Shown piece by piece: positions 5,219-27,913 of a stretch of DNA of 32,376 nt; the stretch's first letter is position 1, and every line of letters begins with the position of its first letter. Under the pieces are notes generated by a model. The model saw only the letters and a program-made list of their open reading frames with translations. It was not told the origin of the DNA and searched no databases. Origin of the DNA: Burkholderiales bacterium (GTDB lineage: Bacteria > Pseudomonadota > Gammaproteobacteria > Burkholderiales > SG8-39); contig JALHLN010000009.1 in NCBI GenBank assembly GCA_022844545.1, positions 1-32,376 on the forward strand, written 5' to 3'. Made by a program: the position numbers and the translations under genes.

Positions 5219-6097
5219 ATGACCACGCCCCTGCCGCCCAAGCAGTTCATCACCGTCAAGGGCCGCCGGCTCGCGCACGTGGAGATGGGCCGCGGCGACC
5301 CCATCGTGCTGCTGCACGGCAACCCCACCTCCAGCTACCTGTGGCGCGAGGTAATGCCGCCGCTGGCGGGCCTGGGCCGCGTCATCGCGCCCGACCTCAT
5401 CGGTCATGGCGACTCCGACAAGCTGCCGGCCAGCGAGGGTCCCGGGCGCTACACGCTGGAGGGTACCTATGACCTGCTGGCCGCCCAGCTCGCCGCCCTG
5501 GGCGTGGACCAGCGCGTCACGCTGGTGCTGCACGACTGGGGCAGCGCCCTGGGCTTTCACTGGGCGCGGCTGCACCCGCAGCAGGTGCGCGGCATCGCGT
5601 ACATGGAAGCCGTCGTCATGCCCCTGCCGAACTGGGACCACTGGCCGGAGAAGGCGCGCGGCATCTTCCAGGGCTTCCGCTCGCCCAAGGGCGAAGACCT
5701 GGTGCTCAAGCGCAACCTGTTCATCGAAGGCGTGTTGCCCAGTTCCATCCTGCGCAAGCTCTCGGACGCGGAGATGGCGGCCTACCGCGCGCCGTTCGCC
5801 AGGGAAGAGGACCGGCAGCCGATGCTGAACTGGCCGCGGCAGATCCCGATCGCCGGCGAGCCGCCGAATGTGGTCGCGCTGGTGCAGCAGTACGCCCAGT
5901 GGTTGAGCACGAGCAGCGTGCCCAAGCTCTTCGTCAACGCCGAGCCCGGCTCCATCCTGGTGGGCGCGCAGCGCGAGTTCTGCCGCGGCTGGCCCAACCA
6001 GCAGGAAGTCGCCGTGCCCGGCCTGCATTTCATCCAGGAAGACTCCGGCGCGGCCATCGGCCGGGCGGTGGCGGCCTGGCTATCCAAGCTCGATTGA
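5219..6097 (+). CDS. Haloalkane dehalogenase, LinB/HLD-II-like alpha/beta hydrolase
   Basis: LLHGNPTSSYLW, VLHDWGSALGFHWARLHPQQVRGIAYMEA, WPRQIPIAGEP, PKLFVNAEPG, LHFIQED: nucleophile D, acid E, base H and halide-binding N/W positions present. Confidence 0.93.
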   Translation: MTTPLPPKQFITVKGRRLAHVEMGRGDPIVLLHGNPTSSYLWREVMPPLAGLGRVIAPDLIGHGDSDKLPASEGPGRYTLEGTYDLLAAQLAALGVDQRVTLVLHDWGSALGFHWARLHPQQVRGIAYMEAVVMPLPNWDHWPEKARGIFQGFRSPKGEDLVLKRNLFIEGVLPSSILRKLSDAEMAAYRAPFAREEDRQPMLNWPRQIPIAGEPPNVVALVQQYAQWLSTSSVPKLFVNAEPGSILVGAQREFCRGWPNQQEVAVPGLHFIQEDSGAAIGRAVAAWLSKLD

Positions 6098-6106
6098 CGG
6101 CACATC

Positions 6107-6838
6107 GTGACCAATCCGCGAAAAGCATTGATCATCGGCGTGGGCGCCGGGAAAGGCCTGGGCGCAAGCGTCAGCGCGCGCTTCGCGCGCGAAGGCTTCC
6201 ACGTGTTCGTCGCAGGGCGCACGGCGCAAAGCCTCGAGCTCGTGGCGCAGCGGATTCGATCCGCAGGCGGAGCCGCCACGGCCATCGTCGCCGACGCCAC
6301 CAGGGAAGCCGACGTGCGGTCGCTGTTCGATCAAGTGTGCGCCGCCGAGGGCAACCTGGATGTCGCCGTCTATAACGTCGGCAACAACACCCCCGGGGCC
6401 GTCACGGAGATGGAAGCGGACTATTTCGAGAACGCGTGGCGCGTGTGCTGCTTTGGCGGCTTCCTGTTCGGCCGCGAGGCGGCGCGCCGCATGCTGCCCA
6501 GGGGCGGCACGCTGCTGTTCACCGGCGCGAGCGCCTCCCTGCGCGGGCGGGCAGGGTTCGCCGCATTCAACTCCGCGAAGGCCGCGCTGCGCAACATGGC
6601 GCAGGCGATGGCGAAAGAGCTGGGGCCGAAGGGGCTGCACGTCGCCCATGTCGTCGTCGATGGCGGCATCGACGGCGACAAGCTGCGCCAGCGGCGCCCG
6701 GAGGTGGTCCAGCAGATGGGCGAGGCGCGCCTGGTCGACCCGGACGGACTGGCGGATGCGTACTGGTTCCTGCATCAGCAGCCGCCGCGCGCGTGGACGT
6801 TCGAACTGGACCTGCGCTCGAAGATCGAGCCGTGGTAG
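6107..6838 (+). CDS. Short-chain dehydrogenase/reductase
   Basis: MTNPRKALIIGVGAGKGLGASVSARFAREGFHVFVAGR; FNSAKAALRNMAQAMAKELGPKGLHVAHVVVDGGI; GTG start. Confidence 0.85.
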   Translation: MTNPRKALIIGVGAGKGLGASVSARFAREGFHVFVAGRTAQSLELVAQRIRSAGGAATAIVADATREADVRSLFDQVCAAEGNLDVAVYNVGNNTPGAVTEMEADYFENAWRVCCFGGFLFGREAARRMLPRGGTLLFTGASASLRGRAGFAAFNSAKAALRNMAQAMAKELGPKGLHVAHVVVDGGIDGDKLRQRRPEVVQQMGEARLVDPDGLADAYWFLHQQPPRAWTFELDLRSKIEPW

Positions 6839-6947: not shown

Positions 6948-6969
6948 GATGTAACCGATCGGTTACATC
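6948..6969. promoter_or_regulatory. 22-bp perfect palindrome GATGTAACCGATCGGTTACATC
   Basis: Exact self-reverse-complement; core related to the palindrome at 18390. Confidence 0.85.
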
Positions 6970-7390
6970 GCAGCCTCAGCGCGGCAGCGCCGCGAAGGCC
7001 TCCACCTCCACCAGGAAGTCCGGGTGCGACAGGCGGCGCACCTCCACCGTGGTGCTGGTGGGCAGCGCGGCGCCGAAGTAGCGCTGCCGCACTTCGACAT
7101 GGCGGAAGAATTCGTCGATGTCGGTCACATAGGTGGTGGTGCGCGCGAGGTCGGCCAGCGTCGCGCCGGCCGCCTCCAGCGCCACGCGCAGGTTCTCGCC
7201 CACCTGCGCGATCTGCGCGCCCATGTCCCCCTTGCCGACGATGTTGCCGGCCGCGTCACGCGCCAGCAGCCCGGAGACGAACACCAGCCGCGCGTCCTCC
7301 AGCGTCACCACCGGCGAGTACAGCAGGTGCCCGCCGACGACGCGCCATGCCGTGCAGCGCCTCGACGGTGAGGCCCCCGGTGTGCGGCGA
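6960..7390. repeat. Direct-repeat copy 1 (431 bp) of 14526..15086, with a 130-bp internal deletion relative to copy 2
   Basis: 6960-7346 aligns to 14526-14912 (offset 7566); 7347-7390 aligns to 15043-15086 (offset 7696); three substitutions seen by eye (7006, 7042, 7376). Confidence 0.93.
6976..7311 (-). pseudogene. 5'-truncated RidA-family gene (copy 1)
   Basis: Same as ridA at 14542..14955 but lacks about the first 14 codons; remaining start is an internal GTG. Confidence 0.8.
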
Positions 7391-7845: not shown

Positions 7846-8835
7846 TCAGCCGAAGCGCACCACCGCGCGTCCGCGGATGCCGGCGGCGATGACCCTGTCG
7901 CAATAGTCCTTCAGTTCGGCGAACGGCATCTCGACGCAGATCGCGTCGAGGTGGCGGGGCCGCAGGTCGCCGCCGCGCGAAAGCCGCTTCCAGGCGTTGC
8001 GGCGCGCCGGCACCGGGTGGTTCGCATTGATGCCCGCGAGCGACACCGAGCGCAGGATGAAGGGATAGATCGAGCTGGTGAAGGTCTCGCCCGCCGCGTT
8101 GCCGAAGGCGCAAACCACGCCGCGCTGCTTCATGGTGCGCAGCAGGTCGTCCAGCGGCTTGCCGCCGACCGCATCGATGGCGCCCGCCCAGCGCTGCGGC
8201 TGCAACGGCGCATCACCGCCGGCGATGGCGTCGCGGCCGATGACCTCCGATGCGCCGAGGGACTTCAGGTACGCCGCCTCCGACGCCTTGCCGGTGCTCG
8301 CCACCACGGTGTAGCCCAGTCCCGCGAGCATGTCGATGGCGAAGCTCGAGCAGCCGCCGGTGGCGCCGGTCACCGCGATGGGACCCATCTCGGGGGTGAC
8401 GCCTCGCGCCACCAGTTCCTCGACGGCGAGCGCCGACGTATACGCGGCGAGGCCCAGGGCGACGGCGTCGAAGGCGTCGAACCCCGCGCCGAGGTGCCCG
8501 ACCCATGCCGCCGGCACGCGCACGTACTCGGCGTACGCGCCGTCGTGGCGGATGCCGAACTCCCTTCCCCCCTGCACAGTCACCGCGTCGCCTTCGCGGA
8601 AATCCGCCTGCGTCGAAGAAACGACGACGCCCGAGACCTCGACGCCCGGAACGCAGGGAAAGCGCTTGACGACGTTACCCGCGCCGGTGACGGCGCGCGC
8701 ATCCTTGTAGTTGACCGCCGCGAACTGCGCGCGGATCACCACTTCTCCGGGGTCGAGATCGTCCAGCGTCTGCGAGACTACGCGGCTGACACGCCGGCCG
8801 TCTTCCTGGTACAGCCTGACAGCGTTGAATTTCAT
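7846..8835 (-). CDS. YhdH/acrylyl-CoA reductase-like MDR oxidoreductase
   Basis: MKFNAVRLYQEDGRRVSRVVSQTLDDLDPGEVVIRAQFAAVNYKDARAVTGAGNVVKRFPCVPGVEVSGVV; GPIAVTGATGGCSSFAIDMLAGLGYTVVASTGK. Confidence 0.9.
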   Translation of the reverse strand: MKFNAVRLYQEDGRRVSRVVSQTLDDLDPGEVVIRAQFAAVNYKDARAVTGAGNVVKRFPCVPGVEVSGVVVSSTQADFREGDAVTVQGGREFGIRHDGAYAEYVRVPAAWVGHLGAGFDAFDAVALGLAAYTSALAVEELVARGVTPEMGPIAVTGATGGCSSFAIDMLAGLGYTVVASTGKASEAAYLKSLGASEVIGRDAIAGGDAPLQPQRWAGAIDAVGGKPLDDLLRTMKQRGVVCAFGNAAGETFTSSIYPFILRSVSLAGINANHPVPARRNAWKRLSRGGDLRPRHLDAICVEMPFAELKDYCDRVIAAGIRGRAVVRFG

Positions 8836-10028
8836 CGCACGGCTCCCGAACTGAACAGTGCGTCGATCTCCTGCGGCGCGAAGCCGAACCCGGCCAGCAC
8901 CTCGCGGCTGTGCTCGCCGATCATCGGCGGCGGCAGGTGCACGCGGGACTGCGCGTCGCGATCGCCGAGGGCCGCACCGACGGTGCGCACGCGGCCGGCC
9001 TTCGGATGCCGCATCTCGACGATGGCGCCGTTGTGCGCGAGTTGCGGCGACGCGAGCACCGCGTCGTACCCGGCGATCGGGCCGCAGATGACGTCCGCGG
9101 CTTCGAGCGCCGCCTGCCATTCGGCGGTGGACTTCGCTGCGAGCAGGCGCGAGAGTTCCTGCATCAGCTTGCCGCGGTTGGCGACACGCAGCGGGCTGGT
9201 GGCGAACTCGGGTCGCGCGGCGAGGCCCTCCTCGCCCAGCACCTCGCACAGCGCGCTCCAGCGGTCCTCGTGGTACGCGGCAATCATGATCCAGCCGTCG
9301 CGCGTCGGGTACGCCTCGTTGGGCGCGGAGTAGGGCGCGGCGCTGCCGCTGCGCGCCGGCAGCTCGCCGGAGGAGAGGTACGAGGCAATCGCCGACTGCT
9401 GCAGCATCAGCGCGCTGTTGTAGAGACTCATGTCGAGGTGCTGCCCGCGGCCCGTGGCATCGCGCACGCGCAGGGCCGCCAGCACCGCGGTGGCCGCGAG
9501 GAAGGCCGTCACCAGGTCGGCGGCGGGAATCTGCAGCTTCATCGGCGGCGAGCCTTCCGCGCCGACCTGGCTCATCAATCCGGAAACGGCCTGGACGATG
9601 CCGTCCACGCCTGGCTTGTCGCGCCAGGGACCGTCCTGACCGTAGGCCGACACCGAGCAGAACACCAGCCGCGGGAATTTCGCGGACAGCGCGGCATAGC
9701 CCACGCCGAGCTTGTCCATGACGCCAGGGCGGAAGCTCTCCAGCACCACGTCGGCGGCCGCCGCCATGCGCTCCGCCACCGCGCGCGCCTCGGGCTTCTT
9801 CAGGTCGAGCACCAGCGAGCGCTTGTTGCGATTGAAACTCATCGAGACCACCGACTCGCCCTCCTGCCACGGCGGGCCGAGCTTGCGGCCGATGTCGCCG
9901 CCGGGCGCCTCGATCTTGATCACTTCCGCGCCGAGGTCTCCCAGCAGCATGCCGCACGCCGGCCCCGCGCCGACCTGCGAGAAGTCGAGTACCGTGATGT
10001 TGGCGAGCGCCGCGTTGATGGAGACCAT
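8832..10028 (-). CDS. CaiB/BaiF (class III) CoA-transferase
   Basis: ITVLDFSQVGAGPACGMLLGDLGAEVIKIEAPGGD; NRNKRSLVLDLKKPEARAVAERMAAAADVVLESFRPGVMDKLGVGY. Confidence 0.93.
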   Translation of the reverse strand: MVSINAALANITVLDFSQVGAGPACGMLLGDLGAEVIKIEAPGGDIGRKLGPPWQEGESVVSMSFNRNKRSLVLDLKKPEARAVAERMAAAADVVLESFRPGVMDKLGVGYAALSAKFPRLVFCSVSAYGQDGPWRDKPGVDGIVQAVSGLMSQVGAEGSPPMKLQIPAADLVTAFLAATAVLAALRVRDATGRGQHLDMSLYNSALMLQQSAIASYLSSGELPARSGSAAPYSAPNEAYPTRDGWIMIAAYHEDRWSALCEVLGEEGLAARPEFATSPLRVANRGKLMQELSRLLAAKSTAEWQAALEAADVICGPIAGYDAVLASPQLAHNGAIVEMRHPKAGRVRTVGAALGDRDAQSRVHLPPPMIGEHSREVLAGFGFAPQEIDALFSSGAVR

Positions 10029-10036
10029 GCGCGCCG

Positions 10037-11017
10037 CTACTCCAGCTTGAGGCCGATGTCGGCGATGGATTTCTGCCACCGCGCGAGGTCGCGCTTCATC
10101 ACTTCGGTCATCTGCTCGGGGCCGAGGTAGCTGACCTCGAAACCCTGTGCGGTGAGCCGCTCACGCGTCTCCGGGAAGGCGAGCGCGCGCTCAACCGCGG
10201 CGGAGAGGCGCGCAACGATCTCGCGGGGCACGCCCGCGGGTGCGAGGATCGAATACCACAGCGGCACCTCGAACCCGGGGAGCGCGGCCTCGGCGATGGT
10301 CGGCACCGTGGGCATTGCGGGGGAGCGCCTCGGTGTCGTCACGCCCAGCGCGCGCAGCTTGCCGGCCTTGACGTGCTGCTCGAGCGAGGCGAGGGTGCCG
10401 ATCGCCGTCTGCACCTGCCCACCCAGCAGGTCGGCGATCGCCGGGCCGGTGCCCTTGTAGGCGATGTGCGTGACCTTCACGCCGGCGGCGTGGTTGAACA
10501 CCTCGTAGGCGATGTGCTGCGGCGTGCCGTTGCCGGGCGTGCTGTGGTTCAGCGCGCCCGGGTTCGATTTGGCTAGCGCAATCAATTCCTTGACGTTCTG
10601 CGCCGGCACCGAGGGGTGCACCGCGAGCACCATCGGCACCGAGGCGGCGAGCGCCACCGGCGCGAAGTCCTTCTCGATGTCGAACGGCAGCTTGGCGTAC
10701 AGCCAAGGGTTGATGGTCACCTGGTTGGAGGCGATGAGGATGGTGTAACCGTCGGCCGGGGACTTCGCCGCCGCGTCAGTGCCGATGTTGCCGCCGGCGC
10801 CCGCGCGGTTGTCGATGACGACGTTCTGGCCGAGGAACTCGCCCATTTTCGGTGCGAGCGCGCGCGCGAGGATGTCGTTGCCGCCGCCCGGCGGGAAGGG
10901 CACGATGAAGCGCACGGGCTTCTCCGGGAACCTCTGCTGCGCATGGGCGATAGTCGCGTTCGAGGCGGCGAAGAGCGTGGTGCAGGCGATGGCGAGCGTC
11001 GCGGCGATCCGGTTCAT
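10037..11017 (-). CDS. Bug-family (tripartite tricarboxylate transporter) substrate-binding protein
   Basis: Signal peptide, then FPEKPVRFIVPFPPGGGNDILARALAPKMGEFLGQNVVIDNRAGAGGNIGTDAAAKSPADGYTILI. Confidence 0.93.
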   Translation of the reverse strand: MNRIAATLAIACTTLFAASNATIAHAQQRFPEKPVRFIVPFPPGGGNDILARALAPKMGEFLGQNVVIDNRAGAGGNIGTDAAAKSPADGYTILIASNQVTINPWLYAKLPFDIEKDFAPVALAASVPMVLAVHPSVPAQNVKELIALAKSNPGALNHSTPGNGTPQHIAYEVFNHAAGVKVTHIAYKGTGPAIADLLGGQVQTAIGTLASLEQHVKAGKLRALGVTTPRRSPAMPTVPTIAEAALPGFEVPLWYSILAPAGVPREIVARLSAAVERALAFPETRERLTAQGFEVSYLGPEQMTEVMKRDLARWQKSIADIGLKLE

Positions 11018-11131
11018 GCGTCCTCCTGGGTTGACGGTACGACAGTGTCGCCCAGCCGCGGGCCGCGGGGCAACCGTGGTTTCGCGGTCTCGATCTGGCA
11101 GAATCGGCCCTCGGCACCCGCGGACGACACC

Positions 11132-12370
11132 ATGGACATCAAGCCTCCGGCGCGCATTGCGCCGATTCTGGAGCAGATCGAGCGCTTCCACGCCGCCGAA
11201 GTGCGTCCGCGCGAGGACAAGCTGCGGCACCGGCTGGAGAACCACCGCGAGTACCTCGACGCCGACGGCCGGCTGCATCCCGAGGTGCAGGCGGCGCGGC
11301 GCGAGATCATGCGCGCCGCCGGGCGCGAGGGCATCTTCTCGCTGCATCTGCCGCAGGAGATCGGCGGCGGGGGGCTCACCCGCCACGAGATGTTTTTCGT
11401 CGAGGAAAAGGTCTACAGCTACGGCGTCGGCCTCAACCCGGCGATGCTGGCGTGGACCGACGGCGCGACGCCGCGGCTGATGTTCTGCCGCGAAGAGCAG
11501 CGCGCGCGCTGGGTGGCGCCGCTCGTCGCGGGCGAGAAGACCTGCTTCAACGCGGTCACCGAGCCGGGCGCGGGGTCCAATCTCTTCGACATGAAGACCA
11601 CCGCGGTAAAGAAGGCCGAGCGCTGGGTGCTCAACGGCCACAAGTCGCTGATCACCAATCCCTTCGAGGCCGACGTCGGCCATGTGCTCGCGGTCACCGA
11701 CCCCGGCAAGGGGGCGCACAGTTTCACGTATTTTCAGTTCGACACCGCGGCGCACCTGGGCCGCGGCTTCCGCCATGGCCGCGTCTACAAGACCATGTTC
11801 GACGACGGCCTCACGGGCGAATTCTTCCTCGAGGACCTGGCGCTCGACGACGACGCCATCATCGGCGAGCGCGGCGGCGGCTTCCAGATCGCGATGGCGT
11901 CGATCAACTGGACGCGCATGCGCCGCGCCGGCATGTGCTCGGCGTGGTCGAAGTACCTGATCGATCGCACGGTCGAGCGGATGCGCTCGCGCGACGTGGG
12001 CGGGCGCCCGCTGGGCAGCAACCAGGGCGTGCAGTGGATGGTCGCCGACATGGTGCTCGACTGGGCGCAGGCGCGCGCGCTGTCGCTCGCCTGCCTGCAG
12101 GCTTTCGAGGCATCGGGCCCCTGGTGGGGGACGCGGCGCTCGCCCGAGGACATCCGCAACATCGCGCTGATCAAGCTCTCCAACGACGAGAGCTTCTTCC
12201 GCGTCGCGGACCGGGCGGTGCAGCTGCACGGCGGCGCGGGCATCATGAAGGACACCACCATCAACAAGCTGTTCCAGATCGCGCGCAACCTGCGCATCCC
12301 GGGCGGCACCGACGAAGTGCAGCGCACGACCATCGCGGAGACGCTCGGGCTGCGCTCGCGGGGCGAATGA
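11132..12370 (+). CDS. Acyl-CoA dehydrogenase family protein
   Basis: CFNAVTEPGAGSNLFDMKTTAVKKAERWVLNGHKSLITN; RVADRAVQLHGGAGIMKDTTINKLFQIARNLRIPGGTDEVQRTTIAETL. Confidence 0.92.
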   Translation: MDIKPPARIAPILEQIERFHAAEVRPREDKLRHRLENHREYLDADGRLHPEVQAARREIMRAAGREGIFSLHLPQEIGGGGLTRHEMFFVEEKVYSYGVGLNPAMLAWTDGATPRLMFCREEQRARWVAPLVAGEKTCFNAVTEPGAGSNLFDMKTTAVKKAERWVLNGHKSLITNPFEADVGHVLAVTDPGKGAHSFTYFQFDTAAHLGRGFRHGRVYKTMFDDGLTGEFFLEDLALDDDAIIGERGGGFQIAMASINWTRMRRAGMCSAWSKYLIDRTVERMRSRDVGGRPLGSNQGVQWMVADMVLDWAQARALSLACLQAFEASGPWWGTRRSPEDIRNIALIKLSNDESFFRVADRAVQLHGGAGIMKDTTINKLFQIARNLRIPGGTDEVQRTTIAETLGLRSRGE

Positions 12371-13683
12371 AGAAGATCCTGCTGGTCCTGCTCGACGGCA
12401 TCGCCGACCGCACGGACCCGGAGCTGGGCGGCCTCACCCCGCTGGAGGCGGCCGCCACGCCGAATCTCGACCGCATCGCCGCGCTGGGCGCCTCGGGAAT
12501 CCTTTATCCGCTCGACCCGGGCCTCGCGCCGCCCAGCGAGATTCCGCACTTCCACCTCTTCGGCTACGCCGACGAACCCTTCCCGGGGCGCGCCGTGTTC
12601 GAGGCGTTCGGCTGGGGCGTGACGCCGCCGCACGACACGGCACTCGCGCATCTGGGCATGAGGCACGTCACGCCGAGCGCGGATGGCTTCGCCATCACCG
12701 AGTGGTGGCCCGGCGACGAGGACGCGGACTGCAGGAAGCTGCTGGCCGATGTCGCGCGCTACCGCGCCGAGGGGATCGAGCTGGAAGTCATCGGCCTGGG
12801 CCGCTCGGATTCGCTGCTGACGATCCGCGGCGGCAGCGAGTACGTCACGGACTCCGATCCGTTCTTTCACACCGGACTTCCGGTAATGCGCGTCGACGCG
12901 CTGGAGGAGGCGCCCGATGCGGAACTCGCGGCGCGCACGGCGCGCGTGCTGAACGCCTATCTCCTGTGGTCGCACGGCGTCCTTGAGCGGCACCCGGTGA
13001 ACGCGGAGCGGCGTGCGCGCGGCGCGCCGCCGCTCAACATGCTGGTGACCAAGTGGCACGGGCGCCATCGCGGCCTGCCGCCTTTCGAGACGCGCGCCGG
13101 GCTCCCGGGGACGCTGATCGCCTCGACGCGCATGTACGCCGGCCTCGCGGCGGCGCTCGGCATGCGCTACGTGCAACTCGATGAGCGCATGGACGCGCCG
13201 GATCTCGAGGTGACGCAAAAGCTGGAGGCCGCCTTCGCCGCGTGCGACGCCGGCGCGGGATTCGTGCACCTGCACACCAAGACGGCGGACGAGGCGGCGC
13301 ATGCGCATTCGCCGCAACTCAAGCGAAGCGTCATCGCCGCCATCGACCGCGGGCTGTCCGCGCTGTGGCAGCGCCCGCGACTGCTGGAGGATTTCGTCGT
13401 CGCCGTGACGGCCGACCACACCACGCCGAGCCGCGGTCCGATGTTGCACTCCGGCGACTCGGTGCCGTTCGTGATGGCGGCGTCCACGGTGCGTATCGAT
13501 TCGGTGGAGGCCTTCGGCGAGCGCGCCGCGGCGGCTGGCGGACTGGGCACGCTGCGAGCCCGCGACGCGATGCCGCTGATGCTGAACGCCGCCAACCGGG
13601 TGCGCTTTCTCGGCGGCCGCGCGACGCCGAACCGCAGCCTCGGCCTGCCGCGCATCACGCCGCTGCGCGCCACAGATGACTGA
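12367..13683 (+). CDS. ApgM-like (archaeal-type) 2,3-bisphosphoglycerate-independent phosphoglycerate mutase family / alkaline-phosphatase-superfamily metalloenzyme
   Basis: KILLVLLDGIADRTDPELGGLTPLEAAATPNLDRIAALGASGILYPLDPGLAPPSEIPHFHLFGY; FVHLHTKTADEAAHA; VAVTADHTTPSRGPMLHSGDSVPFVM. Confidence 0.82.
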   Translation: MKKILLVLLDGIADRTDPELGGLTPLEAAATPNLDRIAALGASGILYPLDPGLAPPSEIPHFHLFGYADEPFPGRAVFEAFGWGVTPPHDTALAHLGMRHVTPSADGFAITEWWPGDEDADCRKLLADVARYRAEGIELEVIGLGRSDSLLTIRGGSEYVTDSDPFFHTGLPVMRVDALEEAPDAELAARTARVLNAYLLWSHGVLERHPVNAERRARGAPPLNMLVTKWHGRHRGLPPFETRAGLPGTLIASTRMYAGLAAALGMRYVQLDERMDAPDLEVTQKLEAAFAACDAGAGFVHLHTKTADEAAHAHSPQLKRSVIAAIDRGLSALWQRPRLLEDFVVAVTADHTTPSRGPMLHSGDSVPFVMAASTVRIDSVEAFGERAAAAGGLGTLRARDAMPLMLNAANRVRFLGGRATPNRSLGLPRITPLRATDD

Positions 13684-14263
13684 GACGCCCGAAAGGGTGC
13701 GCTACGCGGTGGTCCATGGGCGTTTCCAGCCCTTCCACCTCGATCACCTCGCGTACTGCCGGCTTGCGCTCGAGCGCGCCGAGCTGCTGGTGGTGGGAAT
13801 CACCAACTTCGATCCCGCGCTCGCCGAGGTCGAGTCCACCAGCCCGCACCGCCACCAGGCGGCGGCCAATCCATTCAGCTACTGGGAGCGCACGCTGATG
13901 ATCCGCGACGCGCTGCTGGAGGACGGCGTGCCGGGCGCGCGCTTCACGATCGTCGCGCTGCCGGTGCACCATCCGGAGCGCTGGTCGCACTACGTTCCGA
14001 CCGATCCCGCGATTTCCGTGCATGTGCTGCGCGTGTTCTCGTCGTGGGAGGAAGAGAAGGCGCGGCGGCTCGCCGCGGCCGGCATGCGCGTCGAGGCCGT
14101 GCGCGGGCAGCCCAAGCGCGTTTCCGCGACCGAGGTGCGGGCGCGCCTCGCGCAGGGCGCCGGCTGGCAGGAACTCGTACCCCCGGCGGTACGGGAGTGG
14201 CTGCCAAGATTCAGCGCACAGGCGCGGCTGCGCCGGCGGCTCGAGGCGGAGCCGCAGAGCTAG
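13676..14263 (+). CDS. NadM-like nucleotidyltransferase (nicotinamide-nucleotide adenylyltransferase family)
   Basis: VVHGRFQPFHLDHLAYCRLALERAELLVVGI nucleotidylyltransferase motif, C-terminal KRVSATEVRARLAQG; overlaps the preceding gene by 8 bp. Confidence 0.8.
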   Translation: MTETPERVRYAVVHGRFQPFHLDHLAYCRLALERAELLVVGITNFDPALAEVESTSPHRHQAAANPFSYWERTLMIRDALLEDGVPGARFTIVALPVHHPERWSHYVPTDPAISVHVLRVFSSWEEEKARRLAAAGMRVEAVRGQPKRVSATEVRARLAQGAGWQELVPPAVREWLPRFSAQARLRRRLEAEPQS

Positions 14264-14524
14264 CGCGCCGGGTATCGGACTGCGGCGCGTATGCGCTGAG
14301 CCAGGCCAGCACGGCGCCCAGGTCCGCCACGCGCCGCAGCGCGCGGGTGTCCCCAGGGCCGACCTTGATTGTGTGGCCGCCGAGCGCATGGACCGCGTCA
14401 AAGCGGTCTTCATTGGTCCGGTCGTCGCCCACGAACACCGGCCGACGGCCGGCAAACGGCGCTTGCGCCATCAGTTTGCGGATGGCGCGGCCCTTGTCGA
14501 GGCCGTGGGGCTTGAGCTCGCAGT
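14211..14524 (-). pseudogene. otsB: 3' fragment of trehalose-6-phosphate phosphatase (OtsB-like)
   Basis: ELKPHGLDKGRAIRKLMAQAPFAGRRPVFVGDDRTNEDRFDAVHALGGHTIKVGPGDTRA; open frame meets the repeat boundary at 14526 without the N-terminal region. Confidence 0.8.
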
Positions 14525-14525
14525 C

Positions 14526-15086
14526 CGGTTACATCGCAGCCTCAGCGCGGCAGCGCCGCGAAGGCCTCCACTTCCACCAGGAAGTCCGGGTGCGACAGGC
14601 GGCGCACTTCCACCGTGGTGCTGGTGGGCAGCGCGGCGCCGAAGTAGCGCTGCCGCACTTCGACATGGCGGAAGAATTCGTCGATGTCGGTCACATAGGT
14701 GGTGGTGCGCGCGAGGTCGGCCAGCGTCGCGCCGGCCGCCTCCAGCGCCACGCGCAGGTTCTCGCCCACCTGCGCGATCTGCGCGCCCATGTCCCCCTTG
14801 CCGACGATGTTGCCGGCCGCGTCACGCGCCAGCAGCCCGGAGACGAACACCAGCCGCGCGTCCTCCAGCGTCACCACCGGCGAGTACAGCAGGTGCCCGC
14901 CGACGACGCGCCGCGACAGCCCCTCCGGATGCAGGTTCTGCCGCCGGAACGTCACCGCCGCCCCCACACCTCGGGGTTGACCAGGTGCGGCGGGCGCTCG
15001 CCGCGCAGCGCCTGCAGGATCTGGTCCGCCGCCGACAGCGCCATGCCGTGCAGCGCCTCGACGGTGAGGCCGCCGGTGTGCGGCGA
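14526..15086. repeat. Direct-repeat copy 2 (full-length form) of 6960..7390
   Basis: See copy 1; contains the 130-bp segment missing from copy 1. Confidence 0.93.
14542..14955 (-). CDS. RidA-family protein
   Basis: VTFRRQNLHPEGLSRRVVGGHLLYSPVVTLEDARLVFVSGLLARDAAGNIVGKGDMGAQIAQVGENLRVALEAAGATLADLARTTTYVTD; GTG start overlaps upstream stop (GTGA). Confidence 0.9.
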   Translation of the reverse strand: MTFRRQNLHPEGLSRRVVGGHLLYSPVVTLEDARLVFVSGLLARDAAGNIVGKGDMGAQIAQVGENLRVALEAAGATLADLARTTTYVTDIDEFFRHVEVRQRYFGAALPTSTTVEVRRLSHPDFLVEVEAFAALPR

Positions 15087-21374: not shown

Positions 21375-22061
21375 TCAACGGGTCCGCACGATCTGGTAGG
21401 CGCGCGTCAGGTAGCCCACGACGGCGAAGCCGCTCCAGACATGCACCAGGCGCGAGAACGGGAACAGCAGGAACACGGTCATGCCCATCACCAGGTGCAG
21501 CTTGTAGATCCACTCCACCTCGCGGATGAAGTCCGCCGCCCCGGCGCGGAAGGTGACGATGTACTGCGCCCACTGCCCCAGCATCACCATCACGCCGCCG
21601 TCGCGGTGGCCGAGCGACCAGTAGATGGACGCAAGACCAAGGAGCAACGTGGCGAGGATCCACAGCAGGATGAAGATGTCCATGCGCGTCGAGGTGGCGC
21701 GGATGCGCGGCTCGGTCAGGCGCCGGTGCACCAGCAGCAGCAGCCCCACCAGGCACATGGTGCCGAACACGCCGCCGGCGACGATGGCCACCATCTGCTT
21801 GGCTTCGGTCGAGAGGCCGACGGCGTGGTACAGCTCCTTGGGCGTCAGCAGGCCGAACAGGTGGCCGAAGAACAGCGCCAGGATCCCGATGTGGAACAGG
21901 TTCGAGCCCCAGCGCAGCTGCCCGGTGCGCAGCATCTGGCTGGAGTCGCTCTTCCACGTGTACTGCTCGCGGTCGAAGCGGATCAGCGACCCGAGCAGGA
22001 ACACCGCGAGGCAGATGTACGGGTAGATGCCGAACGCGAACTGGTGCAGGAATTCCCTCAT
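21375..22061 (-). CDS. narI: Respiratory nitrate reductase gamma subunit
   Basis: MREFLHQFAFGIYPYICLAVFLLGSLIRFDREQYTWKSDSSQMLRTGQLRWGSNLFHIGILALFFGHLFG; ATGA overlap with narJ. Confidence 0.97.
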   Translation of the reverse strand: MREFLHQFAFGIYPYICLAVFLLGSLIRFDREQYTWKSDSSQMLRTGQLRWGSNLFHIGILALFFGHLFGLLTPKELYHAVGLSTEAKQMVAIVAGGVFGTMCLVGLLLLVHRRLTEPRIRATSTRMDIFILLWILATLLLGLASIYWSLGHRDGGVMVMLGQWAQYIVTFRAGAADFIREVEWIYKLHLVMGMTVFLLFPFSRLVHVWSGFAVVGYLTRAYQIVRTR

Positions 22062-22714
22062 GGCCTGGCTCCCTTGGCGTAGAACTTGACCGGCTGCGGC
22101 GCCCCTCCGGGCTGCAGCCCGTCCATGAACGTGACCGGCTCCTCCATCCACACCTTGTCGATGGCGGCGGGCGAGTTTTCCTCCCCCGGCGTCAGGCGCG
22201 GCGCGAGCGCCTTCGTCAGGCCTGCCTCGCGGCCGGCGGCGAGGACCGCGGCGAACAGCGCCGAATAGCGGCTGCCGCGGTCGGCGAGGCGATCGCCCAG
22301 GCTGCGCAGGATCTCGGCGGTCTCGCCGATCATCCCCTCGGCCTCTTCGCGCGGCAGCGTGGAGAGGAACTCGAGGAACGCCGGCAGGTAGTCCGGCAGC
22401 TCGCCATCGGCGACCTCGAAGCCGCGCGTGCCGTAGGTCTGCGCGAGATCCACCATCGCCTGGCCGCGATCGCGCGATTCGCCGTGCACGTGCTCGAACA
22501 GGTGCAGCGACAGCGCCCGCGAGCGGTCGAACAACTCGACGTAGCGCTCCTGCAGCACGTGCAGCGGCTCGGCGCCCAGTTCGTCCAGCAGGGCCCGCAC
22601 CCCCTTGTCCTTCGGGAACAGTGCCTTGATTTCCGGAACCGCCTCGACCAGGTCCGGTTCCGGATAGGCGAGCAGCGCCGCCAGCGCCTTGAATTTCGTG
22701 GATTCGCCCGTCAT
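22058..22714 (-). CDS. narJ: Nitrate reductase molybdenum cofactor assembly chaperone
   Basis: FKALAALLAYPEPDLVEAVPEIKALFP...LSLHLFEHVHGESRDRGQAMVDL. Confidence 0.96.
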   Translation of the reverse strand: MTGESTKFKALAALLAYPEPDLVEAVPEIKALFPKDKGVRALLDELGAEPLHVLQERYVELFDRSRALSLHLFEHVHGESRDRGQAMVDLAQTYGTRGFEVADGELPDYLPAFLEFLSTLPREEAEGMIGETAEILRSLGDRLADRGSRYSALFAAVLAAGREAGLTKALAPRLTPGEENSPAAIDKVWMEEPVTFMDGLQPGGAPQPVKFYAKGARP

Positions 22715-24237
22715 ACCGCCGCCTTGATCGGAATGGTGCGCTTCTTCTTGCCGCCGAACAGGCTTGGCTCGCTCTCGCCGTCCGAGCAGCCGTTGCCGAA
22801 GCTGAAGCCGCAGGAGCCGCGCAGGTCGTAGGCGTCCTCGGCGTACTCGCGGTGCGTGGTCGGGATGACGAAGCGGTCCTCGTAGTTGGCGATCGCCATG
22901 GTGTGGTACATGTCCTCGACCTGCGCCTGCGTCAGGCCCACCTGCTCCAGCACCGCCGCGTTCTCGCGCTTCTCGACGTGGCGCGAGCGCATGTAGGCGC
23001 GCATCGCCAGCATCCGCTCCAGGGCCAGCTTCACCGGCGCCTCGTCGCCCGCGGTGAGCAGGTTGGCGAGGTATTTCAGCGGGATGCGGAGCTGCGACAC
23101 GTCCGGGATCTCGCCGTTGGCCCCCAGGTGGCCGCTGTTGGCGGCGGCCGAGATGGGCGACAGGGGCGGAACGTACCAGACCATGGGCAGCGTCCGGAAC
23201 TCCGGGTGCAGCGGGAAGGCGACCTTCCAGTCCATCGCCATGCGGTAGACCGGCGAGTTCTTCGCCGCCTCCAGCCAGTTGTCGGGCACGCCGTCCTTGC
23301 GCGCCTGCTCGATCACCTTCGGGTCGTTGGGATCGAGGAACAGCTTGAGCTGTTCCTCATACAGCTGCTTCGGGTCGGCCACGCTCGCCGCCGCCTCGAT
23401 GCCGTCGGCGTCGTAGAGCAGCACGCCAAGGTAGCGGATGCGGCCGACGCAGGTCTCCGAGCACACCGTGGGCTGGCCGACCTCGATGCGCGGGTAGCAG
23501 AAAATGCACTTCTCGGCCTTGCCGGTGGACCAGTTGTAGTAGATCTTCTTGTACGGGCAGCCCGAGACGCACATGCGCCAGCCGCGGCACTTGTCCTGGT
23601 CGATGAGGACGATGCCGTCCTCCTCGCGCTTGTAGATCGAGCCCGAGGGGCAGCTGGCGACGCAGGTGGGGTTGAGGCAGTGCTCGCACAGCCGCGGCAG
23701 GTACATCATGAAGGTGTTCTCGAACTGGCCGTAGATCTCCTTTTCCACCTCGGCGAAGTTGGCGTCCTTGGAGCGCTTGGCGAACTCCCCGCCCAGGATC
23801 TCCTCCCAGTTCGGGCCCCACTCGATCTTCTGCATGCGCTCGCCGGTGATGAGCGAGCGCGGCCGCGCCACCGGGGACGCCTGCTTCTGCAGCGGCGCGG
23901 TGTGCAGGTGCTCGTAGTCGAAGGTGAAGGGCTCGTAGTAGTCGTCGATCTCCGGCAGGTTGGGATTGGCGAAGATCTTCATCAGGATCGACAGCTTGCC
24001 GCCCTGCTTGGGGTGGATGCGGCCATTCGCGCCGCGCGTCCAGCCGCCGTTCCAGCGCTCCTGGTTCTCCCAGTCCTTCGGGTAGCCGATGCCGGGCTTG
24101 GTCTCGACGTTGTTGAACCAGGCGTATTCCATGCCCGGGCGGTTGGTCCAGACGTTCTTGCAGGTCACCGAGCAGGTATGGCAGCCGATGCACTTGTCCA
24201 GGTTCAGGACCATCCCGATCTGCGCGCGGATTTTCAT
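22711..24237 (-). CDS. narH: Respiratory nitrate reductase beta subunit
   Basis: MKIRAQIGMVLNLDKCIGCHTCSVTCKNVWTNRPGMEYAWFNNVETKPG; CEHCLNPTCVASCPSG; CRGWRMCVSGCPYKK Fe-S motifs. Confidence 0.98.
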   Translation of the reverse strand: MKIRAQIGMVLNLDKCIGCHTCSVTCKNVWTNRPGMEYAWFNNVETKPGIGYPKDWENQERWNGGWTRGANGRIHPKQGGKLSILMKIFANPNLPEIDDYYEPFTFDYEHLHTAPLQKQASPVARPRSLITGERMQKIEWGPNWEEILGGEFAKRSKDANFAEVEKEIYGQFENTFMMYLPRLCEHCLNPTCVASCPSGSIYKREEDGIVLIDQDKCRGWRMCVSGCPYKKIYYNWSTGKAEKCIFCYPRIEVGQPTVCSETCVGRIRYLGVLLYDADGIEAAASVADPKQLYEEQLKLFLDPNDPKVIEQARKDGVPDNWLEAAKNSPVYRMAMDWKVAFPLHPEFRTLPMVWYVPPLSPISAAANSGHLGANGEIPDVSQLRIPLKYLANLLTAGDEAPVKLALERMLAMRAYMRSRHVEKRENAAVLEQVGLTQAQVEDMYHTMAIANYEDRFVIPTTHREYAEDAYDLRGSCGFSFGNGCSDGESEPSLFGGKKKRTIPIKAAV

Positions 24238-27200
24238 GCTGCCTCCCCGTCCATCCAGTCCACCTTGTTCATTTTTCTCACGATGACGAACTCGTCGCGG
24301 TTGGTGCCGATGGTGCCGTAGTAGTTGAAGCCGTAGCTCTGCTGCGCGTAGCCGCCGATCATGTGCGTGGGCTTGGGGCAGGTGCGGGTCACCGAGTTGT
24401 GGATGCCGCCGCGGGTGAGCATGATCTCCGAGCCCGGGGTGTTCACGATCTTCTCCTGGGCGTGGTACATCAGCACCATGCCCTCGGGCACGCGCTGGCT
24501 GACCACCGCGCGCGCGGTGAGCGCCCCGTTCAGGTTGTAGGCCTCGATCCAGTCGTTGTCGACGATGCCCACCTTCTTCGCGTCCACCTCCGACAACCAC
24601 ACGATCGGCCCGCCGCGCGACAGCGTGAGCATGATCAGGTTGTCGGTGTAGGTGGAGTGGATGCCCCATTTCTGGTGCGGCGTGATGAAGTTGAGCGCGA
24701 TCTCCTGGTTCCCGTTCGAGCGCTTGCCCAGCATCGGCGACACCGTCTTGGTGTCCACCGGCGGGCGGTAGGACACCAGCCCCTCGCCGAAGGCCAGCAT
24801 CCAGGGATGGTCCTGGTACAGCTGCTGGCGCCCGGTGAGCGTGCGCCACGGGATCATTTCGTGCACGTTGGTGTAGCCGGCGGTGTACGACACATGCTCC
24901 GACTCCAGGCCGGACCAGGTGGGCGAGCTGATGATCTTCCTCGGCTGCGCCTGCACGTCCCGGTAGCGGATCTTGTCGTCCTGGCGCGGCTTGGCGAGGT
25001 GCGTATGGTCGCGTCCGGTGATCACCGACAGCGCCTCCCAGGCCTTCACCGCCACCTCGCCGTTGGTCTCGGGCGCGAGCGCGAGGATCACCTCGCAGGC
25101 GTCGATGTCGGTCTCGATCTTCGCCTGGCCCTTGGCGTTCCTCTGGTTCAGGTCGCCGAGGAACTTCACCTCATGCTCGGTGTTCCAGGCGATGCCCTTG
25201 CCGCCGTTGCCGACCTTCGCCATCAGGGGCCCCAGCGCGGTGAAGCGCTCGTAGGTGGCCGGGTAGTCGCGCTCGACCACCGTCACCGCCGGCATGGTCT
25301 TGCCGGGAATGGGCTCGCATTCGCCCTTCTTCCATTCCTTGGGCTCGAAGGCCTGGCCCAGCTCCCCCGGGGTGTCGTGCATCAGCGGAGTGAGCACCAC
25401 GTCCTTCTCCACGCCCAGGTGGTGCTTGGCGATCTCGGAGAACTTCTTCGCGATGCCCTTGTAGATGTCCCAGTCGCTGCGCGACTGCCACACCGGGTCC
25501 ACCGCCTGCGACAGCGGGTGGATGAACGGGTGCATGTCCGAGGTGTTGAGGTCGTTCTTCTCGTACCAGGTGGCGGTGGGCAGCACCACGTCCGAGTACA
25601 GGCACGTGGTGCTCATGCGGAAGTCGAGCGTCACCAGCAGGTCCAGCTTCCCTTGCGGCCCTTTCTCGTGCCAGGCCACTTCCTGCGGCTGCGCGCCGTC
25701 CTCGGCGCCCTGCACGCCGTTGGTGGTGCCGAGCAGGTGCTTGAGGAAGTACTCATGCCCCTTGCCGGAGGAACCCAGCAGGTTGGAGCGCCAGACGAAC
25801 AGGTTCCTCGGGAAGTTGTCCGGGTGGTCCGGGTCCTCGCAACTCATCTTCAGCCGGCCAGCCTTCAACTCGCGCGCGACGTAGTCCTTCGGCTCGAGTC
25901 CCGCGGCGGCCGCCAGCTTCGCGATGCCCAGCGGATTGGCCTGCAGCTGCGGCGCCGAGGGCAGCCAGCCCATGCGCTCGGCGCGCACGTTGAAGTCGAT
26001 CAGGCTGCCGCTGTAGCGCTTGCGGTCCGCCAGTGGCGACAGGATCTCCTCCACCGTGAGCTTCTCGTAGCGCCACTGGTCAGTGTGGGCGTAGAAGAAG
26101 CTGGTGGAGTTCATCTGCCGCGGCGGCCGCACCCAGTCCAGGGCGAAGGCGAGCGCGGTCCAGCCGGTCTGCGGCCGCAGCTTCTCCTGGCCGACGTAGT
26201 GCGCCCAGCCGCCGCCCGACTGCCCGACGCAGCCGCAGAACACCAGCATGTTGATGATGGCGCGGTAGTTCATGTCGGAGTGGTACCAGTGGTTCATCGC
26301 CGCGCCGATGATCACCATGGACTTGCCCTGGGTGCGGTCGGCGTTGTCGGCGAACTGGCGCGCAACCGACACGACGTCGGCCCGCGGCACCCCGGTGATT
26401 TTCTCCTGCCAGGCCGGGGTGTAGGGGACGTCGTCGTCATAGGACTTCGCCGCGCCGACGCCGTACTGCGCCATCATCAGGTCGTAGACGCTGGCCACGA
26501 GGTGTTCGCCCAGCTTCTTCACCGGCACCGCGCGCAGCAGCACGTCCTGCTGGACATTGGACTTGAAATGCTCGTGCGCGATGCCGCCGAAGTACGGGAA
26601 GGCGACCTGCGCGGTCTCGTCCTTTACCGCCTCCAGCGATAGCCGCGGCTTGATGGCGGTCTTGGCGAGGTTCCACTTGCCCTTCTCGCCCCAGCGGTAA
26701 CCGATGGAGCCCAGCGGCGCCGCCGGCTGGCCGGTGGCCTCGTCGATGCAGATCGTCTTCCATTCCGGGTTGTTGGACTCGCCCAGCCTGTCGGCGAAAT
26801 CGGAGGCGCGCAGGAACCGGTCCGGCACCAGCCGGTCGCCCTGCTTCACCAGCCGCACCAGCATCGGCAGGTCGGAATACTGGCGGCAATACTCGCGGAA
26901 GTATTCGGACTTGTCCTTGGCGTGATACTCGCTGAGGATGACGTGGCCCATGGCCATGGCGAGCGCCGCGTCGGTACCCTGCTTCGGGTGCAGCCAGATG
27001 TCGCCGAACTTGGAGCCCTCGGCATAGTCCGGGAACACCGACACGATCTTGGCGCCGCGGTAGCGCGCCTCGGTCATGAAGTGCGCGTCCGGCGTGCGCG
27101 TCTGCGGCACGTTGGAGCCCCACATCATGATGAAGGTGGAGTTGTACCAGTCGGCGGACTCCGGCACGTCGGTCTGCTCGCCCCAGGTCATGGGGCTGGA

Positions 27201-27875
27201 GGGCGGCAGGTCGCAGTACCAGTCGTAGAAGCTCATGCACGTGCCGCCGATGAGCGACAGGTAGCGGCTGCCGGCGGCGTAGGACACCATGGACATCGCG
27301 GGAATCGGCGAGAAGCCGATGATGCGGTCCGGCCCGTACTTCTTCGCGGTGTAGACGTTGGCCGCGGCGACGATCTCGTTCACCTCGTCCCAGCTCGCGC
27401 GCAGGAAGCCGCCCAGGCCGCGCGCCTTCTTGTAGGAGGCGGCCGCGTCCGGGTTCTCGACGATGGCGCGCCAGGCGTCCACCGGCGAATCGGTCTTCCT
27501 CAGCTCGCGCCACAGGCGCAGCAGCGGGCTCCTCACCATCGGGTACTTGATGCGGTTGCCGCTGTACAGGTACCAGGAGTACGAGGCGCCGCGCGAGCAG
27601 CCGCGCGGCTCGTGGTTGGGCATGTCGGGGCGCGTCCTCGGGTAGTCGGTCTGCTGCGTCTCCCAGGTGACGATGCCGCCCTTGACGTAGATCTTCCAGG
27701 AACAGGACCCGGTGCAGTTGGTGCCGTGCGTGGAGCGCACGATCTTGTCGTGGCTCCAGCGCTGGCGGTAGGCCTGCTCCCAAGTGCGGTCCTCGCTGCG
27801 GGTCTCGCCGTGGCCGCTGGCGAACTTCTCCGTCGAGGAGGTGAGGAACCTGAGTCGGTCGAGGAAATGGCTCAT
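24234..27875 (-). CDS. narG: Respiratory nitrate reductase alpha subunit
   Basis: 1213 aa; HGTNCTGSCSWKIYVKGGIVTWETQQTDYPRTRPDMPNHEPRGCSRGASYSWYLYSG; YCDLPPSSPMTWGEQTDVPESADWYNS (Mo-ligand Asp region). Confidence 0.98.
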   Translation of the reverse strand: MSHFLDRLRFLTSSTEKFASGHGETRSEDRTWEQAYRQRWSHDKIVRSTHGTNCTGSCSWKIYVKGGIVTWETQQTDYPRTRPDMPNHEPRGCSRGASYSWYLYSGNRIKYPMVRSPLLRLWRELRKTDSPVDAWRAIVENPDAAASYKKARGLGGFLRASWDEVNEIVAAANVYTAKKYGPDRIIGFSPIPAMSMVSYAAGSRYLSLIGGTCMSFYDWYCDLPPSSPMTWGEQTDVPESADWYNSTFIMMWGSNVPQTRTPDAHFMTEARYRGAKIVSVFPDYAEGSKFGDIWLHPKQGTDAALAMAMGHVILSEYHAKDKSEYFREYCRQYSDLPMLVRLVKQGDRLVPDRFLRASDFADRLGESNNPEWKTICIDEATGQPAAPLGSIGYRWGEKGKWNLAKTAIKPRLSLEAVKDETAQVAFPYFGGIAHEHFKSNVQQDVLLRAVPVKKLGEHLVASVYDLMMAQYGVGAAKSYDDDVPYTPAWQEKITGVPRADVVSVARQFADNADRTQGKSMVIIGAAMNHWYHSDMNYRAIINMLVFCGCVGQSGGGWAHYVGQEKLRPQTGWTALAFALDWVRPPRQMNSTSFFYAHTDQWRYEKLTVEEILSPLADRKRYSGSLIDFNVRAERMGWLPSAPQLQANPLGIAKLAAAAGLEPKDYVARELKAGRLKMSCEDPDHPDNFPRNLFVWRSNLLGSSGKGHEYFLKHLLGTTNGVQGAEDGAQPQEVAWHEKGPQGKLDLLVTLDFRMSTTCLYSDVVLPTATWYEKNDLNTSDMHPFIHPLSQAVDPVWQSRSDWDIYKGIAKKFSEIAKHHLGVEKDVVLTPLMHDTPGELGQAFEPKEWKKGECEPIPGKTMPAVTVVERDYPATYERFTALGPLMAKVGNGGKGIAWNTEHEVKFLGDLNQRNAKGQAKIETDIDACEVILALAPETNGEVAVKAWEALSVITGRDHTHLAKPRQDDKIRYRDVQAQPRKIISSPTWSGLESEHVSYTAGYTNVHEMIPWRTLTGRQQLYQDHPWMLAFGEGLVSYRPPVDTKTVSPMLGKRSNGNQEIALNFITPHQKWGIHSTYTDNLIMLTLSRGGPIVWLSEVDAKKVGIVDNDWIEAYNLNGALTARAVVSQRVPEGMVLMYHAQEKIVNTPGSEIMLTRGGIHNSVTRTCPKPTHMIGGYAQQSYGFNYYGTIGTNRDEFVIVRKMNKVDWMDGEAA

Positions 27876-27913
27876 GCGGTCTCCGTCAGTGTTGCGTTCG
27901 GCGCGGCGTCATC

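Follow-up and report, generated by a model that had tools for sequence, protein, structure and literature searches.

An ApgM-like and NadM-like gene pair from a Burkholderiales genome lies at the core of a conserved cassette that may serve selenium metabolism

An ApgM-like and a NadM-like gene, overlapping in a Burkholderiales contig, are the core of a conserved cassette of three to four genes. Because this cassette repeatedly adjoins selD, the pair probably helps to make a selenium-containing small molecule. We put at about even the chance that the cassette specifically converts selenophosphate to a selenium small molecule or cofactor outside the described selenium traits. The proposal is built on four observations, namely the cassette itself, its conservation, its selenium neighbourhood and its active-site residues.

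The window, that is, the whole 32,376-nucleotide stretch of DNA analysed, carries the three genes on the forward strand. The first gene of the cassette (11132..12370, 412 aa) encodes an ACAD-like flavoprotein, assigned from Pfam ACAD domains, a PDB alignment and a family alignment. It is followed by the gene for the ApgM/PhpG-like phosphotransferase of the alkaline phosphatase superfamily (12367..13683, 438 aa) and by that for the NadM-like nucleotidyltransferase (13676..14263, 195 aa). Direct inspection of the reading frames confirmed the coordinates and overlaps reported in the first-pass annotation: 4 bp between the ACAD and ApgM-like genes, with the ApgM-like ATG inside an ATGA stop/start, and 8 bp between the ApgM-like and NadM-like genes. 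Divergent from the cassette, on the reverse strand, lie genes for a CaiB/BaiF-type CoA-transferase (CoA_transf_3; 8832..10028) and a TctC-type periplasmic solute-binding protein (10037..11020). The latter probably stands outside the cassette, and its adjacency is not conserved in other loci. A CaiB/BaiF-type CoA-transferase also lies beside the cassette in Polynucleobacter and Rokubacteria loci. The window contains no selenium genes.

A neighbourhood check across genomes, as the first-pass annotation had proposed, revealed a NadM-like gene directly beside the ApgM-like one in 67 of the 85 related loci fetched, which shows that the operon in the window is real. The contig profile search retained the best 80 of 131 loci and used a five-sequence query, two members of which were Rhodococcus sequences with an adjacent selD, a source of bias. 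The pair was found in betaproteobacteria, Rokubacteria, Actinomycetota, Desulfobacterota, Chloroflexota and haloarchaea, and is essentially absent from the same genus, family and order (1/61 relatives). One member of the order (G202) encodes a 32% homologue (L011); the short segment examined there contains neither NadM nor SelD. The viral contigs searched held no relatives. In a further 12/85 loci a PP-loop sulfurtransferase-type ATPase replaces the NadM-like gene. The two never occur together (0/85 loci), and their pattern implies at least five switches on the ApgM tree. By its fold, the PP-loop family resembles the sulfur-inserting ATPases YcfA, TrmU/MnmA, TtuA, NcsA and LarE.

The ApgM-like protein aligned with PDB 2zkt (E=5e-53) and matched the Pfam families Metalloenzyme (1e-30) and PhosphMutase (1e-21). 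It retains the residues of a two-metal site with a Ser nucleophile (D10, S57, D308, H312, D350, H351 and H361) and adds a family-specific HxH motif (H301, H303), the first His of which is invariant in the family, whereas F, L or Y occupies this position in canonical enzymes. Its scores stayed below the curated apgM cut-offs (TIGR00306, 284 against 320 bits; PRK04024, 248 against 489 bits). In a tree whose long branches make it provisional, PDB 2zkt, PDB 3idd and Macrococcus ApgM formed a separate branch (100/100), and the window protein fell in the clade with ACAD and NadM genes. The earlier label 'archaeal-type' is misleading, since the archaeal ApgM structures occupy a branch that does not include the window protein. 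A methanogen ApgM of the same kind (MJ0010) reportedly has phosphoglycerate mutase activity, which counts against the selenophosphate reading.

The NadM-like protein matched PDB 1ej2 (E=9e-11) and PF01467 (3.5e-7), and the NTP-site motifs GRFQPFHxxH and SATEVR are retained. For both proteins the similarity is well above what chance would give. The NMN-pocket loop of 1ej2, however, was not matched: the whole family carries a TNxD insertion together with other invariant residues (R59, N65, P108, W124 and K128). Judged from its sequence, the acceptor pocket is unlike that of NMNAT, and the protein scored below the NMN adenylyltransferase cut-offs (TIGR01527, 55 against 181 bits; PRK01153, 60.6 against 127 bits). 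These departures weigh against reading the pair as surplus housekeeping copies of phosphoglycerate mutase and NMN adenylyltransferase, as do the scores of both proteins below the enzyme-level cut-offs and the position of the ApgM-like protein outside the canonical branch; in favour of that reading are the retained ApgM fold and active-site residues. We rejected it because a standard GpmA (C277) and a NadD (C167, beside proA at a contig edge), both recognised by eye from their motifs, are encoded elsewhere in the genome, and we give it next to no credence. The best His_Phos_1 match (C38) reads as a GpmB/PhoE-like phosphatase. The first-pass annotation had also judged that the pair would be redundant as housekeeping enzymes and had proposed a dedicated phosphomutase or phosphohydrolase plus nucleotidyl-transfer module. 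Conservation, gene overlap and the divergent acceptor pocket agree with a dedicated module of phosphotransfer and nucleotidyl transfer, and neither protein reaches a named-enzyme cut-off that would place it in an already assigned family.

The module had further been assigned to an acyl-CoA operon. An ACAD gene does adjoin the pair, but it belongs to the cassette itself, being present at 42/85 loci, including compact operons with no further acyl-CoA genes, and its product lacks the canonical catalytic Glu. At the MCAD position of this residue the window protein has Gly (RIPGGTDEVQ), and the family alignment shows Ala or Gly in 42/42 cassette ACAD homologues; at the isovaleryl-type position the window protein has Thr. 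Both positions are where, from knowledge of the family, we take the MCAD-type and isovaleryl-type Glu to lie. The loss of the residue is hard to reconcile with ancillary acyl-CoA catabolism, in which an ordinary ACAD dehydrogenase would operate and the pair would recycle a phospho-metabolite of the pathway. Such a role fits the CaiB-type CoA-transferase and further acyl-CoA genes close to the cassettes of betaproteobacteria and Rokubacteria, but the cassettes of Rhodococcus and many Pseudonocardia have no other acyl-CoA genes, and we consider it very doubtful.

The selenium association emerged from the gene neighbourhoods. selD lies within 3 kb of the cassette in 17/85 loci, the window not among them, a distribution that implies at least seven changes on the tree. 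The operon ACAD-selD-NadM-ApgM was found on Rhodococcus plasmids and in Pseudonocardia, Saccharopolyspora and an actinobacterial MAG; in Methylobacterium the same four genes lie together, partly divergent. The Rhodococcus cassette SelD is genuine, with 378 bits against a TIGR00476 cut-off of 125 and a CxCK active site. In Halobaculum, the cassettes include a SelD-like gene that has diverged and bears the motif CGCAGK (hhalign E 1.5e-4). Neither the Halobaculum protein nor the PP-loop family gave a match when searched by sequence against the PDB. In Desulfobacterota, methanogens and two further loci (L027, L030), ApgM-like genes occur amid SelA/SelB/SelD/YedE/YedF/DUF3343 genes.

Selenium genes and the cassette might simply be carried along together in selenocysteine islands, with the cassette performing a function in anaerobe or acyl-CoA metabolism that does not involve selenium. 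Such co-travel would account for the ApgM-like genes inside larger selenium clusters (L030, L067) and for the presence of SelA in 44/51 cassette genomes. It sits badly with the operons of Rhodococcus, Pseudonocardia, Saccharopolyspora and Methylobacterium, which contain selD and neither selA nor selB, and with the six of these genomes in which the cassette gene is a second selD. In the L097 genome the cassette SelD is the sole SelD, and SelA and SelU were not found. We regard co-travel as distinctly unlikely.

SelD scored above cut-off in all 51 cassette genomes searched, including the genome of the window. Its background is high (50/61 relatives, 82%; 207/299 in one actinobacterial family, 69%), so this co-occurrence is weaker than it appears. 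In the window's own genome, selD is next to the selenouridine gene SelU on a different contig, which explains its presence without the cassette. In the majority of ACAD-NadM-ApgM cassettes, among them those of Actinomycetospora, many Pseudonocardia and Polynucleobacter, selD is not adjacent. Support for the selenium link is good at the level of the family and weaker for the window. As for the first-pass annotation as a whole, its dedicated module is supported, but it overlooked the most telling sign, namely that selD and other selenium genes recur beside the cassette.

An NCBIfam search also returned the PhpG model (NF038358) among the relatives of the ApgM-like protein, at 190 bits. In a PhpF/PhpG-like module operating without selenium, the NadM-like enzyme would link a phosphonate or phospho-acid to CMP or AMP as an ester, which the ApgM-like enzyme would transfer to 3-phosphoglycerate to supply a small-molecule pathway tied to CoA; the selD neighbours of certain lineages would then be incidental. 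The NadM-like protein belongs to PF01467, as does the cytidylyltransferase PhpF (PMC6697681). The surroundings of the Polynucleobacter loci include CoA-transferase, thiolase and SDR genes, and NadM-like homologues that occur without ApgM are partnered with PPDK-type dikinases, not SelD. The PhpG cut-off of 545 bits is nevertheless far off, and no PEP mutase or other phosphonate gene was found among the annotated neighbours of the plasmid cassettes. A selenium-free module would also leave unexplained the second selD within operons of six genomes and the selenium clusters of anaerobes. We consider it unlikely.

For the selenophosphate reading, we infer all substrates and every step after the first. 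The cassette would comprise the ACAD-like flavoprotein, SelD (encoded in the operon or elsewhere in the genome), and the NadM-like and ApgM-like proteins. SelD would form selenophosphate from selenide and ATP, its known chemistry. With CTP or ATP as donor, the NadM-like protein would then transfer a nucleotidyl group to selenophosphate or a derivative and release pyrophosphate; anaerobes would instead rely on a PP-loop ATPase for the activation. To our knowledge, nucleotidyl transfer to selenophosphate would be without precedent. The ApgM-like protein, with its two metals and Ser nucleophile, would transfer the activated group to a phosphoglycerate-like acceptor, much as PhpG acts with CMP-phosphonoformate, an intermediate of its pathway (PMC12288639), and the product would undergo a redox or elimination step catalysed by the ACAD-like flavoprotein. 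More tentatively, and with less than an even chance, the cassette could represent a further, undescribed selenium-utilisation trait in which nucleotidyl-activated selenophosphate is loaded on a phosphoglycerate-type acceptor, giving a new selenium-containing small molecule or cofactor. Such a trait would come in two forms, one aerobic, with NadM-like and ACAD-like proteins and in many cases a SelD of its own, the other anaerobic, with a PP-loop ATPase and a TIM-barrel protein. It would explain why some selD genes are orphans or duplicates.

Very few uses of selenophosphate are known, and the unexplained trait based on SelD that was put forward in 2016 came with no convincing set of genes (PMC5029168). 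The defined three- to four-gene cassette with its own selD on Rhodococcus plasmids occurs in cultivated strains, which makes the selenium question directly testable. If the proposal is true, the labels phosphoglycerate mutase, NMN adenylyltransferase and acyl-CoA dehydrogenase would be wrong for many of the genes that now bear them.

Among known systems, PhpF/PhpG of phosphinothricin biosynthesis offers the same superfamily pair, with nucleotidyl activation followed by ApgM-like phosphotransfer and, here, a PF01467 partner in most loci; the cassettes differ in their selD, ACAD or PP-loop partners and in having no phosphonate genes around the annotated examples. Archaeal-type ApgM (TIGR00306; PDB 2zkt, 3idd) shares the fold, two-metal site and Ser nucleophile, whereas the window protein has a separate, well-supported branch, the HxH first His and a sub-cut-off score. 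NadM (TIGR01527; PDB 1ej2) shares the NTP-binding motifs GRxQPFHxxH and S-x-T-x-x-R and lacks the extra TNxD loop and invariant residues of the window family. With the known selenium traits (selenocysteine, selenouridine, the Se-cofactor with YqeB/YqeC, and selenoneine/ovoselenol) the cassette would share the use of selenophosphate, in keeping with SelD in every cassette genome searched; the literature searched does not name ApgM-like, NadM-like or ACAD genes for these traits. Nor do the passages of PMC5029168 consulted name ApgM, NadM or ACAD for the unknown SelD-based trait. The paper does propose as a candidate for the trait an isochorismatase-like family adjoining orphan selD (Peng et al. 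2016), and it lists Methylobacterium and several actinobacteria among orphan-SelD organisms. An isochorismatase-like gene (PF00857) also lies near 17/85 of our cassettes, and the cassette may be part of the trait suspected there.

Re-checking the reading frames of the window returned exactly the three plus-strand genes and the two overlaps of the first-pass annotation: an acyl-CoA-dehydrogenase-like (ACAD-like) gene (11132-12370, frame checked directly), an ApgM-like gene (12367-13683) overlapping it by 4 bp, and a NadM-like gene (13676-14263) overlapping the latter by 8 bp. G+C content is 70.5% in the cassette versus 68.8% in the window, and other contigs are likewise similar. The first relatives came from plasmid records, with the tight operon TetR - ACAD - SelD - NadM-like - ApgM-like in Rhodococcus and the order ACAD - ApgM-like - 'hypothetical' - NadM-like in Halobaculum. 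A scan of 84,980 genomes gave 131 relatives, of which the best 80, with the plasmids and the window, made up a comparison set of 85 loci. The neighbourhood comparison that the first-pass annotation had proposed for the pair bore it out, with a NadM-like gene adjoining the ApgM-like gene in 67 of these 85 loci. We regard the cassette as real with near certainty.

A direct repeat of 387 bp (99.5% identical; 6960-7346 and 14526-14912), containing part of a RidA gene, flanks on both sides a 7.2-kb stretch that comprises a CoA-transferase (8832-10028, minus strand), TctC (10037-11020, minus strand) and the cassette. This stretch may therefore have been recently inserted or duplicated, or the repeat may be an assembly artefact. 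A further 61 bp are repeated at 7331-7390 and 15026-15086. Immediately 3' of the NadM-like gene, and ending close to the repeat, lies a C-terminal remnant resembling trehalose-6-phosphate phosphatase (OtsB; 14264-14545, minus strand; identified by eye). Further along is a respiratory nitrate reductase operon (21375-30828, minus strand) with NarG (24234-27875), NarH (within 22711-24849) and NarJ/NarI-like and NarK-like frames.

The first-pass annotation had argued that the pair are not redundant housekeeping enzymes, and the genome agrees: an ordinary GpmA is encoded on contig C277 and an ordinary NadD on contig C167, where it adjoins proA and is truncated at the contig end. The ApgM-like protein is a member of the Metalloenzyme/PhosphMutase families and can be aligned to PDB 2zkt (E 5e-53), but with 284 of 320 bits it falls short of the curated apgM threshold. 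Both NTP motifs are intact in the NadM-like protein, which reaches only 55 of 181 bits with the archaeal NMN adenylyltransferase model. Its family carries throughout a TNxD insertion and invariant R59, N65, P108, W124 and K128, all absent from the NMNAT 1ej2. The ApgM-like gene was not found in 60 relatives and is nearly absent from the order, which makes it accessory here. A housekeeping role for the pair is thus very improbable.

An ACAD gene lies beside the pair in 42 loci of the 85-locus, best-80 set. In all 42, the usual catalytic glutamate is aligned with Gly or Ala (ARNLRIP-A/G-GT), whereas PDB homologues carry IYEGT. The window protein has Thr at what we take to be the alternative, isovaleryl-type catalytic position. 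Because the glutamate has no counterpart at either position, the protein is, judging from its sequence, probably not an ordinary dehydrogenase.

In the same best-80 set, a PP-loop ATPase adjoins the ApgM-like gene in 12/85 loci, 6/85 have neither partner and 0/85 have both, an exclusion with a chance of ~1e-10 assuming independence and uncorrected for relatedness. Partners switched at least five times on the ApgM tree. The PP-loop family (L067:6190-7023, L080:7204-8001, L098:7160-7990 and others; A/S-GRDS and CxGCH motifs) had no match in Pfam or NCBIfam; its AlphaFold model (pLDDT 86.8) matches YcfA, TrmU, TtuA, NcsA and LarE, PP-loop enzymes that for the most part insert sulfur. Both partner types split NTP to pyrophosphate, from which we infer that either one may perform the same activation. 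In anaerobes the PP-loop gene often sits inside selenium clusters. A xylose-isomerase-like TIM-barrel protein, weakly CbiR-like, adjoins the same genes (L067:7036-7836, L095:4219-5031, L034:6232-6999, L098:6483-7130), and genes resembling HgdB/HgdC, the 2-hydroxyacyl-CoA dehydratase D component and activator, recur close to ApgM-like genes of anaerobes (L067:4005-6053; L098:1720-2451 and 5238-6356; L040, L078, L089, L090).

Selenium genes recur near cassettes of this family. selD lies within 3 kb in 17/85 loci of the best-80 set, far beyond chance given one to few SelD genes among thousands per genome, with at least seven gains or losses of adjacency on the ApgM tree. The Rhodococcus cassette SelD scores 378 bits against a curated cut-off of 125 and has the C-x-C-K active site. 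The Halobaculum 'hypothetical' is AIRS/SelD-like, though diverged, and bears a CGCAGK motif (hhalign against SelD: E 1.5e-4, probability 51%); it is found at 481-500 aa inside haloarchaeal cassettes (L017:10263-11708, L018:9272-10768, L108:7263-8765). The cassette SelD is an extra copy in six genomes (those of L035, L046, L047, L066, L074 and L083); in that of L097 it is the sole copy, SelA and SelU not being found, although absence from a MAG is no proof. The ApgM-like gene of Desulfobacterota, anaerobic Actinomycetota and methanogens stands amid SelA, SelB, SelD, YedE, YedF, DUF3343 and LysR, named by sequence resemblance. All 51 cassette genomes searched had SelD above cut-off (SelA 44/51, SelU 9/51), but co-occurrence alone is modest evidence because the background is high (50/61 genomes around the window's own; 207/299 of one actinobacterial family).

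An isochorismatase-like gene (PF00857) lies near 17/85 cassettes of the best-80 set, in Polynucleobacter, Methylobacterium, a Burkholderiaceae MAG and Actinomycetospora. Peng et al. 2016 (PMC5029168) list 26 organisms whose selD is an orphan, Methylobacterium and several actinobacteria among them, and propose a SelD-based trait of unknown nature with an isochorismatase-like gene as candidate partner; ApgM, NadM and ACAD are not named in the portions of the selenium-gene literature searched, this paper included. Taken as a family, the cassette is likely linked to selenium.

The window ApgM-like protein groups with a Rokubacteria homologue (L028, 66% identity) and Polynucleobacter within an ACAD+NadM clade that is separate from canonical ApgM (100/99 support for the clade, in a tree of 43 rows). 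As selD-bearing cassettes fall in a different subclade, its selenium role is drawn from the family, and for this copy we lean only slightly towards one. The genome encodes SelD (C62:5299) adjoining SelU (C62:4292), and a second SelD on contig C101 (L105), an 816-residue frame fused to an NDH-like flavoprotein.

Outside the cassette, NadM-like homologues are partnered with PPDK-type dikinases; SelD is likewise a dikinase, so a NadM-like role on a dikinase product fits. Such loci without ApgM (L109, L110, L111, L112, L113) have a PPDK_N-type partner in Enterococcus, Rhodococcus and Treponema, the last with a cysteine desulfurase and a viperin-annotated radical SAM gene, and a DHH/DHHA2 gene in Rhodococcus and Halorussus. 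MJ0010, a methanogen ApgM of this kind, reportedly has PGM activity, and this would be in keeping with a pocket that binds phosphoglycerate. Selenophosphate resembles phosphonoformate in being an analogue of phosphate that bears a single unusual substituent. By analogy, the NadM-like protein would activate selenophosphate or a compound derived from it, the ApgM-like protein would transfer the group and the ACAD-like protein would act on the product, a chemistry we consider speculative and rather unlikely in this exact form. Phosphinothricin biosynthesis offers its best model in the pair PhpF/PhpG. There PhpF, a member of PF01467, acts as cytidylyltransferase on phosphonoformate (PMC6697681), the pathway passes through CMP-phosphonoformate (PMC12288639), and PhpG, whose model the ApgM-like protein matches far under cut-off (190 of 545 bits), is the CMP-5'-phosphonoformate--3-phosphoglycerate phosphonoformyl transferase of NCBIfam.
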